Shown here piece by piece: positions 51,549-54,597 of a DNA stretch of 64,000 bases (its first letter is position 1; the number at the start of each line of letters is the position of its first letter). The DNA comes from Acanthamoeba lenticulata (taxonomy: Eukaryota; Discosea; Longamoebia; Acanthamoebidae): contig NAVB01000078.1 in NCBI GenBank assembly GCA_002179805.1, positions 1-64,000 on the forward strand, written 5' to 3'. Under the pieces are notes generated by a model. That model was not told the origin of the DNA. It was given only the letters and a program-made list of their open reading frames with translations, and did no database searches. Position numbers and translations under genes: made by a program.

Positions 51549-53278
51549 ATGGCCAACTTTGATATGGACAGCGTAGAGGCCTGGCGCCAAAAGAAGATTG
51601 TGGAGCAGTTGGAGAGCGCCAAGGGCAACGGCACCTCGTGCATCACCATCATCGTCCCGCCCAACTACCAAATGGTCAACCTGACCAAGCTGCTGACCCG
51701 CGAGCTGGGTTCGGCGTCGAGCATTAAGAGCCGCCTCACGCGTAACTCGGTCATCGACGCGCTCAAGTCCATCCAGCACCGCGTCAAGCTCATCACGCGC
51801 CCGCCTACCAACGGCCTCGCCATCTTCTGCGGCACCGTCCTGCGCGACCGCCGCGAGAAGAAGGAGCTGACGGTGTGGGAGCCCATCCAGCCGCTTAAGC
51901 AGTTCTCCTACCTCTGCGACGGCCAGTTCCATGTAGAGCAGCTCAAGGACCAGCTCAACGAGCACGACAAGTACGGCTTCATCGTCCTCGATGGCCACGG
52001 TACCTTGTTTGCCACCGTCCAGGGCAACCACGTCAACGTGCTCCAGCGCTACACGGTGGCCCTCCCCAAGAAGCACCGCCGAGGCGGTCAGTCAGCCGCC
52101 CGCTTCTCTCGGTTGCGTTTTTAACGCGAGGCATACCTACCTCGTACGTCTTCTTCTTTCACTTGACTCCTTCTTTCACATCTTTATCCATATCTCTGAC
52201 GTTTGGTGTATGTCTTGTGCAGACGAAGGTGGCCGAAACAGCGGTCCACTGCTTCGTGGGTAGGGACGACCAGCCCACGGTCAAGGGCCTTGTCGTGGCC
52301 GGCTTGGCAGACCTCAAGGCCGAGCTGACGTCGAACCCGAAGCTGCTCGACAAGCGCCTGCTGTCTCGAGTGCTCAAGACCGTCGACACGGCCTACGGCA
52401 TGGAGAAGGGCCTGCACCAGGCCATCGCCCTGTCCGCCGACGTCCTTGGCGAGGTTCGACTGCTCAAGGAGCAGCGCCTGCTAGAGCGCTACTTTACCGA
52501 GCTGGGCGCGGTCAGCGTCACCGACGCCGGCAGCCGAGCCGCCTGCGGGCTGCGCGAGACCGTGACCGCCCTGCGCGAGGGCGTCGCCGACAGCATCATC
52601 TGTTGGGAGCGCCTCACCGTCGTGCGCTACACGCTCCAGCACGCCGCAACGGGTCGCACCGAAGTCGTCCACCACACCCCGCGGCCTGGCCGCCCGGAGC
52701 CCACGTTGGCCGAGCTTCTGGCCGACACAGCGGAGCAAGGCTGGGCGATCGTCGAGCAGGCGCCGCTGGTGGATTGGCTCGCGGAGCACTACCGCGAGTT
52801 TGGCGCCCAGCTGGCCTTTGTCTCAGGCAACTCGGAGCTGGGCCACCAGTTTGTGCAGAGCTTTGGCGGCCTCGGCGCCGTCCTGCGCTACCCGGTCGAC
52901 TTTGAGGCGCTCGACATGCCCGCGGTCCGCGAGGACGAGGATGACGAGGACGACGACTTTGACGACTTTGATCTCGAGAGCTGCTGTGTCAGCGAGCCTG
53001 AGCCCAAGCCGCTGGGCCCCAACGAGGAGGTCCTCGAGTTTGCCGAGGAGGACTTTATAGATGACGACGACGACGACGGTGACGAAGCCGGCCGTTGCGA
53101 CAACAAGGGAAACGACAAGGGCAAGGAGAGGGTCGGATTGCCGCCGCGTGCAGGGGGCAACAACGACAAGGCTTGCCCAGTCAAGCCGGCGCGCCAGCTT
53201 ACAAGCAAGATCAGGCCCACCGACAGGGTGTTTGTGCCGAACGGCCGTAGCAGCTCGACTGCAGGCGCCGCCCAGTAA
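51549..53278 (+). CDS. eRF1-like release factor with apparent +1 frameshift
   Basis: The first exon (51549..52143) and second (52223..53278) encode an eRF1 relative of about 549 residues if a +1 shift occurs at 52122. The N domain has GNGTSCITIIVPP, then SASSIKSRLTRNSV where eRF1 has TASNIKS, and keeps YLCDGQF (YxCxxxF). The catalytic loop KKHRRGGQSAARFSRLR is intact. The frame then reads TTT TAA C. Skipping one T gives NARHTYL up to a consensus GTACGT donor at 52144 and joins TKVAETAVHCF, matching eRF1 KRHNYVRKVAETAV without a gap. Domain 3 follows (GLVVAGLADLKAEL, MEKGLHQAIALSADVL, HQFVQSFGGLGAVLRYPVDF). An acidic extension of about 110 residues is extra compared with 437-residue human eRF1. 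The start is at MANFDMDSVEAWRQKK, aligned with eRF1. Confidence 0.85.
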
Positions 53279-53474: not shown

Positions 53475-54597
53475 CTACCAGAAGGAAGTGGAACGAAGCA
53501 GGGAGTTCTCGAAACTGTTGAGCTCCCATTTAAAGTTGAAGTAGTTCACTTGTAGGCGAGAGGCGTTGGCTGCAAGGTAGCGCTTGACCGCCGGGCTGGC
53601 CTGCATGTGGGCCGACACGTAGTTGACGACGCTCCCGTACTGGCGGGTGAAGTCTTCCTCCTCCCAGACAAAGATGCGCGACAGCGTCAACGTGCCGGTC
53701 GTCATGTCCAGCTGAAGGCCCTTGCCGGTGTCGTTGAGGAAAAGTGCGGCCGACTGGTTCATCTGGGCCTCCAGGGTTAAGCCCGTGTAGGCCTCGCCGA
53801 GAAGTGACGGGCACGACACGCAGGCGCTGACCATGCACGACCACGCACGCGCGTCGTTGAAGCCCCGCACGACGTCGCGCACCTGGCGCAGGGTGTAGCT
53901 CCGCCCGCCGACCGTGCCCGCCTCGACGTCCCAGTTGGACTGTGCACAATCAAGAAATTGTGCCAAAAGGTGGAAGCGAGTGAGTGCGAGCTGCGCCATC
54001 ACAGAGCTTGGGGCAGCACACTTACCTCGCCGAGGCCGCCGAGCTCGCGGATGCTGCGTGCGGGCCAGCAAAAGCGACCAAACGTGACACGGCACGGGTT
54101 GTTGACCACCTGACGCACCACGAACGCGTTGTACACGTTCTGGAGCAGGAAACGACAGGTGAGAAAGATGTAGAAGACAAGAGGTTCGACTGAAATGGAC
54201 GTACGAGCCAGAAGGCCAAGGTCTCCTCAGGAGACTGCGCCAACGAGGAGGGGTCGAAGGCGGCCAGCTGGGCAAGATAGGCAGCAAAGTCGGGGTCGGC
54301 TCGCCGGCGGAGCGCTTGATAAGCCACCACGGTCTCCTCTATCCCATCAATCTTGGCTGGCGTACACACCATGCCCCGTAAGAAATGTATTTCAAACAAA
54401 CAAAGAAAGCGATGAAAAAGCGAAAGAGAAGTACCAGAAGAGGCATAAGTTTGGAGGACGCGGGTCCACCGGGAATGGTCAAACGATGGAGAAGGCGAAG
54501 CCGTCACTGCTGGCAAAGATGTGCCAGCAATTGCAGGAGCCGACAGTAAGGCGAGCAGACAAATCAACACCACACCAGCTGTTGTGCCGTGCTCCAT
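53475..54597 (-). CDS. Secreted DUF547-domain protein
   Basis: Four exons (54597..54435, 54356..54205, 54139..54026, 53939..53475) give 297 residues. A signal peptide (VVLICLLALLSAPAIAG) precedes the DUF547 signature FWLNVYNAFVVRQVV, followed by GRSYTLRQVRDVVRG, a cysteine cluster (CMVSACVSCPSL) and FVWEEEDFTRQYGSVVNYV. DUF547 proteins are widespread in bacteria, plants and protists with no firm biochemical role. It is probably secreted or lysosomal. The start is the ATG, since the codon before it in frame is GTG. Confidence 0.85.

Follow-up and report, generated by a model that had tools for sequence, protein, structure and literature searches.

The 64000-nt stretch of Acanthamoeba lenticulata DNA that we analyzed (the window) contains a gene of the eRF1 family whose reading frame is broken by a stop codon shortly after the GGQ motif. 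We consider it quite likely that this gene encodes a functional, deep-branching paralog of eRF1, that its full-length product can be made only by programmed +1 frameshifting at UUU_UAA_C, and that the supply of release factor is the probable signal. The shift-prone stop codon, together with a matching continuation in the +1 frame, is present in both copies of the locus in the genome. The window corresponds to positions 1-64000 of one contig (C73), and the genome that we searched is a 48.5-Mb assembly of 1825 contigs. Two profilin ORFs in this assembly have PDB profilins IA/I and II as their best matches; these profilins are from Acanthamoeba castellanii, and as the matches are near-identical at most, they fit a different species of the genus.

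A shift-prone stop codon within an eRF1-like gene

The gene is on the plus strand and starts with an ATG at 51549. No stop codon interrupts the zero frame between 51549 and 52121; it ends at a TAA (52122-52124). This open reading frame (51549-52124) encodes the N domain, the motifs SASSIKS, YLCDGQF, and GGQ, and the beginning of the M domain, up to RLRF just before the TAA; it was identified from its Pfam matches (eRF1_1 and positions 1-50 of eRF1_2), a match to eRF1 in the PDB (E about 1e-58), and an alignment of the motifs. The shift site, CGT TTT TAA C, is at 52116-52125 (TTT at 52119-52121, TAA at 52122-52124, and C at 52125) and includes five consecutive T (52118-52122). These coordinates agree with the initial annotation, except that it put the stop twelve codons after GGQ and we count 11 codons past the Q. 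In the mRNA (CGU UUU UAA C), a tRNA-Phe on UUU would be able to re-pair with the UUU of the +1 frame. We also noticed that the T run lies inside a small palindrome, TTGCGTT TTT AACGCGA (52113-52129), that could form a 7-bp hairpin around the shift site.

From 52123, the +1 frame reads AAC GCG AGG CAT ACC TAC CTC, which encodes NARHTYL (52123-52143; according to the eRF1 profile and Pfam, the corresponding residues of ordinary eRF1 are EKRHNYV), and reaches a GTACGT donor at 52144. By homology, this is the start of a 79-nt intron (GTACGT...TGTGCAG, 52144-52222) whose end fits the sequence of a metagenomic relative, P0001. Exon 2 (52223-53278) opens after TGTGCAG with TKVAETAV and continues in the +1 frame to a TAA at 53276-53278. 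According to Pfam and the alignment, it encodes the rest of the M domain, the C domain, and an acidic tail, in which a conserved FVP motif lies close to the terminus. Further along, on the minus strand, a neighboring open reading frame (53478-54338) has a weak match to DUF547 that falls below the cutoff (E 8e-4).

The +1 continuation fits eRF1 better than other ways of reading the gene

All three eRF1 domains are identified by Pfam, with domain 2 split over two frames. Within the 133 positions of eRF1_2, the zero-frame piece matches positions 1-50 and exon 2 matches positions 60-131 (followed by eRF1_3). If the ribosome moves to the +1 frame and the intron is removed, then positions 51-59 are filled by exactly nine residues, FNARHTYLT, and crossing the intron neither adds nor removes a residue. 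This bears out the earlier proposal that NARHTYL runs to the GTACGT donor and continues as TKVAETAV without a change in length. Among 109,796 stop-free 21-nt windows from both strands of the 64-kb window, just five, with NARHTYL being one of them, fit the eRF1 profile this well. Because the gap is filled exactly and so few windows fit equally, the +1 joint is beyond what chance would give.

To compare products, we scored each with a profile built from 104 ordinary eRF1s, and the spliced +1 product scored best (484.8 bits) among the products compared. Second came a -1 shift that keeps the intron (454.0 bits), which we rejected as it adds an insert without homology. Truncation, readthrough, and a spliced -1 shift all scored about 244-246 bits; on this basis (~246 versus 484.8 bits), we also rejected readthrough in the zero frame. 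Transcriptional slippage was set aside as well, as a run of five T seems short for it.

The stop codon could instead be lost before translation, through an intron that was not predicted or through editing that deletes one U and so brings back the frame. On paper, 902 in-frame products can be written with GT/GC...AG introns at least 20 nt long. However, the best of these scored 441.6 bits, so that every one is at least 43 bits under the +1 product, and the 25 longest, which we examined, either retain the intron or lose conserved eRF1 residues. We know of no nuclear U-deletion editing in Acanthamoeba. Overall, we think it very unlikely that the frame is restored in this way.

A second copy of the gene has the same site

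Another contig, C635, is colinear with the window from 41165 onward, to 64000 (we compared the first 20,000 of its 24,521 bases). Three long pieces of it are 94.9-95.9% identical to the window, and it is probably the other haplotype. It carries the same shift-site sequence, TTTTTAAC, with all five T; its intron is 73 nt. Between the two copies, we counted no substitutions in the 595 nt of exon 1, 1 in 73 nt of intron, 11 in 1056 nt of exon 2, and 74 in 1650 nt of three flanking stretches. Exon 2 is thus less diverged than the flanks (p = 1e-7), and exon 1 is better conserved than exon 2 (p = 0.01). By codon, the changes in exon 2 are seven synonymous and four non-synonymous, and both of its indels are multiples of three (12 and 6 nt), whereas those in the flanks are of mixed length. 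That all 595 positions of exon 1 are identical amid flanks that are several percent apart suggests either gene conversion or constraint at the nucleotide level.

Relatives break at the same codon

We searched for relatives of exon 1 and matched 26 proteins among 106 candidates, and eight of the 26 end exactly with GGQSAxRFxRLRF. A profile built from nine pieces matched 1081 proteins, of which 120 were listed. (A pattern scan took 116 of the 120; the other four had already been matched by the exon-1 search.) Among the matches listed, a gap in score separates the top 11 (328-368 bits) from the remainder (254 bits and less). These 11 relatives, which we refer to as the clade, are 50-84% identical to the window gene. 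Nine of them end exactly with RLRF and a stop, at the same column as the window gene, as judged from protein ORFs (the codons and the downstream frame are known for the window genome alone), and the number of independent cases is fewer than nine because P0123 and P0125 are near-copies. The two exceptions are P0147, which reads RLRKYLHLI, and P0126, which ends with GGQSGKF. Below the score gap, P0182 (RLRV), P0234 (RQCL), and P0252 (RLWV) also stop at this column. P0234 and P0252 are distant eRF1-like pieces on unresolved branches.

Altogether we fetched 253 proteins, and 245 of these contain GGQS. With search length limits that favor truncated ORFs, 12 of the 245 end exactly at the shift column, while in the 60 residues after GGQ every other endpoint was seen once, except for one that was seen three times. 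In ordinary eRF1s, the residue after RLR was M, L, E, D, T, V, or I in all 116 that were read (of 120 listed), and never F.

A full-length search (about 302-960 amino acids, up to 8000 candidates) gave 228 matches, of which 120 were listed. Among the matches listed in this search and in the exon-1 and profile searches, we found no intact full-length member of the clade. The matches listed in the full-length search were instead three C-half ORFs (P0001, P0005, and P0021) and, otherwise, ordinary eRF1s at 39-48% identity. The C-half ORFs have no N domain and are 64-68% identical to exon 2, and they have its tail in common, including the acidic stretch and the FVP motif near the end. P0001 starts with LAFVNEQ and then reads TKVAETAV, which fits an intron that ends at the same place as in the window gene.

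Given that the second copy and the relatives break at this codon, a sequencing error or a recent pseudogene is unlikely, even though a sequencing error or a recent one-base insertion had been put forward as the main alternative when the site was first noticed. Rather, a common break point in distant relatives suggests an evolved switch, not a mistake. In the relatives, an alternative cause of the break may be readthrough in frame, or an intron located there.

The gene is a paralog of the main eRF1

Exon 1 matches three loci in the genome: the window, the copy on C635, and a third contig, C295. The gene on C295 is an ordinary eRF1, with an uninterrupted ORF of 443 codons and the TASNIKS motif. 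The window gene has the YxCxxxF (YLCDGQF) and GGQ motifs of the eRF1 family in the alignment, but TASNIKS is replaced by SASSIKS, which is why we classified it as a paralog and not as an ordinary eRF1. It also has HRRGGQ where ordinary eRF1 has HGRGGQ (R for G). At the TASNIKS site, nine of the 11 clade relatives have CIKS, and P0121 and P0122 have SIKS. Judging by its sequence, then, the window gene is a divergent paralog and not the main eRF1 of the cell. The initial annotation was correct as to the family but took the gene for eRF1 itself.

To place the gene in a tree, we used 34 N-terminal pieces (P0125 was omitted as a near-copy), with four archaeal factors as the outgroup. The outgroup came from a search of genome contigs that gave 158 relatives, 80 of which were kept; the titles that we read among these were archaeal. 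The window gene and 10 relatives form one branch (support 86/92), and 16 ordinary eukaryotic eRF1s form a separate branch (98/98), with a bootstrap that had not fully settled in either case. If the column with the trait is omitted, support for the clade is 87/90. A clade that unites these 11 rows with P0182, P0234, and P0252 is compatible with the data but not demonstrated by them (p-AU 0.473).

A predicted stem-loop downstream of the stop codon

In the spliced mRNA, we predict a 20-pair stem, broken by small bulges, that covers offsets 14-63 (counted from the U of UAA), so that the stem-loop starts 11 nt past the stop codon. The exon junction is inside the 5' arm, which is made of 52136-52143 and 52223-52235; after the loop, the 3' arm is at 52242-52264 (the exon-2 part of the structure is 52223-52264, all on the plus strand). 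The minimum free energy of the 63-nt segment with the stem-loop, which was picked after the fold was seen, is -31.4 kcal/mol. Across 1000 synonymous recodings the average was -18.9 (sd 2.7), and none was as stable (z = -4.7 against codon resampling). With longer segments, the native stability was reached by 0 of 1000 recodings at 72 nt and by 2 of 1000 at 90 nt. When we scanned the coding sequence, the first folding window (z = -4.2) was the most extreme of 49 windows in the +1 frame, and 25 windows in the zero frame reached -1.7 at most. Another coding window has a slightly lower free energy (-31.7), but its z is not lower. With dinucleotide shuffles, 60-nt windows gave z of -3.7 to -5.0, while 40-nt windows showed nothing (-0.1 to -1.5).

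In these predictions, the complete stem depends on splicing. Within spliced sequences 120 to 800 nt long, its pair probabilities are 0.78-1.00. When the intron was left in (three stretches, 209 to 700 nt), the probability was 0.0 for the seven outer pairs and 0.01-0.75 for the inner ones. Covariation does not support the stem because both copies in the genome are identical there. In P0001, 18 residues from TKVAETAV on are identical to the window gene, as are the 16 of these that P0005 covers; this identity fits constraint on the protein or on the RNA alike.

Is the short product the functional one, or the gene a relic?

We considered whether the 191-amino-acid product of the zero frame is functional by itself (for instance, as a decoy or regulator), with the +1 extension being rare or vestigial. 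AlphaFold2 models this product with a mean pLDDT of 81.5 and its N domain at about 87-95, and exon 1 is the better-conserved part between the copies, as noted above. However, the M-domain piece is modeled poorly, with blocks of 37-77, which is in line with the short product being an incomplete protein, and the C-halves are conserved as proteins. (The AlphaFold2 model of the C-half has a mean pLDDT of 67.4, and its tail looks disordered.) We give this explanation little credence.

It is similarly improbable that the gene is a pseudogene, in which a one-base insertion broke a redundant eRF1 paralog and was then inherited by both contigs. The genome does have an uninterrupted ordinary eRF1, and conserved eRF1 positions are altered in the window gene (SASSIKS, and R for G in HGRGGQ). 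Against this, relatives down to 50% identity have a stop at the same codon, and exon 2 is constrained both between the two copies and in comparison to metagenomic relatives. Finally, an error in the sequencing or assembly of the T run is the least probable of these explanations, since although it is a homopolymer within a small palindrome, the five T are also found in a second contig whose flanks have diverged, and metagenomic ORFs of relatives show the same break.

A proposed switch

The preferred reading is programmed +1 frameshifting, and from the site and its context we infer that shifting occurs and how it might operate. If release factor is scarce, UAA would be read slowly, and the Phe-tRNA could slip from UUU to the overlapping UUU, so that AAC enters the A site. 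Ribosomes that shift would add the remainder of the M domain and the C domain, to give a full-length product of 549 amino acids. The stem-loop, which would be complete only in the spliced mRNA, would be near the entry side of a ribosome paused at UAA and might stimulate the shift. If release factor is plentiful, the 191-amino-acid product, with half an M domain, would be released, and the mRNA of unshifted ribosomes may be subject to nonsense-mediated decay (NMD). Such a switch would tie the supply of a backup or specialized release factor to the capacity for termination.

As in bacterial RF2, the switch may include autoregulatory feedback. Because the gene is a paralog, the factor that competes at UAA may mainly be ordinary eRF1, and because ordinary eRF1 coexists with it, what the switch responds to may be overall termination capacity and not only the level of the paralog. 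If the proposal is correct, the gene would represent a natural eukaryotic sensor of termination capacity, in an amoeba from the host lineage of viruses with a similar arrangement, and it would offer a candidate +1 stimulator that forms only once the intron is removed.

Comparison to known systems

Release-factor genes that are controlled by a shifty stop codon are already known from bacteria and from mimiviruses. The closest case is the eRF1 of mimivirus (R726) and megavirus (mg280), whose expression involves a +1 shift (at CUU UAG C and CUU UAA C, respectively) as well as readthrough (PMC3521657). As in the window gene, this is an eRF1-type class-I factor with a +1 shift at an internal stop codon that is followed by C, and these are viruses of Acanthamoeba; but the gene is viral, the shift codon is CUU, and readthrough occurs at another internal stop, UGA-C (PMC3521657). 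The window gene is cellular and has UUU, a single stop, an inferred intron, a predicted stem-loop, and relatives that break at the same codon. From 51549 to 52121, its zero frame has no stop, neither an upstream UGA-C of the mimivirus type nor any other, and in place of CUU-stop-C it has UUU UAA C, which could work alike. In mimivirus, a tagged P2 band of 25-30 kDa hints, by our estimate, at a shift that is earlier than in the window gene (PMC3521657). Other Mimiviridae extend the viral case, with a CUUUAG consensus (PMC6582330).

In bacterial RF2 (prfB), the supply of release factor sets the outcome of frameshifting, and UUU_U is a minority shift site (PMC5009743, in part). RF2 resembles the window gene in having a stop codon followed by C within a release-factor gene, a +1 slip on a U-rich codon, and the same proposed feedback. 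It differs in that the protein family is unrelated, the site is CUU UGA C at about codon 26, and the stimulator is a Shine-Dalgarno sequence (PMC5009743); in the window gene, the stop is UAA, comes after part of the M domain, and precedes a predicted stem-loop. In plants, a circuit of readthrough and NMD makes a eukaryotic eRF1 message respond to the level of eRF1 at its own stop codon, but there the normal stop is read through and there is no +1 shift within the coding region (PMC11062462). Euplotes also shifts to the +1 frame at stop codons, but it does so in many genes and with a changed code (PMC5009743 and PMC10235951, in part), whereas here we examined one gene and an ordinary TASNIKS eRF1 is present.

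Among the papers listed by our literature searches, we did not find a cellular eukaryotic gene of the eRF1 type with a +1 shift site, and the sections of PMC5313130, PMC11946776, and PMC6514570 that we consulted describe none. So far as this search goes, the window gene would be new as a cellular eukaryotic case; the original suggestion that no eukaryotic parallel was known may hold for cellular frameshifting but not more broadly, given the +1 shift of mimivirus and megavirus (PMC3521657) and the plant circuit (PMC11062462). According to Jeudy et al. (2012, PMC3521657), the eRF1 paralog of A. castellanii has no internal stop codons. This conflicts with our results, unless the site is absent from the Neff strain of A. 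castellanii or was bridged in its gene model.

A broader scenario is possible, though we hold it only tentatively. An ancient clade of eukaryotic eRF1 paralogs, outside the ordinary eRF1s, might have retained a +1 shifty stop immediately following the GGQ region, by which termination capacity is sensed, together with a stimulatory stem-loop that only splicing completes; the same gene might have moved into a giant virus, and the recoding of host and viral release factors may share a history. If so, host ancestry would enter the question of where viral recoding came from. We scanned for eRF1 on viral contigs in three ways (with P0132, with profile A2, and with a KKHxxGGQ DNA pattern) and found none; two matches to the DNA pattern on viral contigs were discarded as chance matches in phage-like contigs. 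Our guess that P0132 is a giant-virus copy of the amoebal gene concerns a fast-evolving, 188-amino-acid ORF that ends with RLRF and a stop, is on a metagenomic contig of 195,460 bases, and has a long branch beside P0128.
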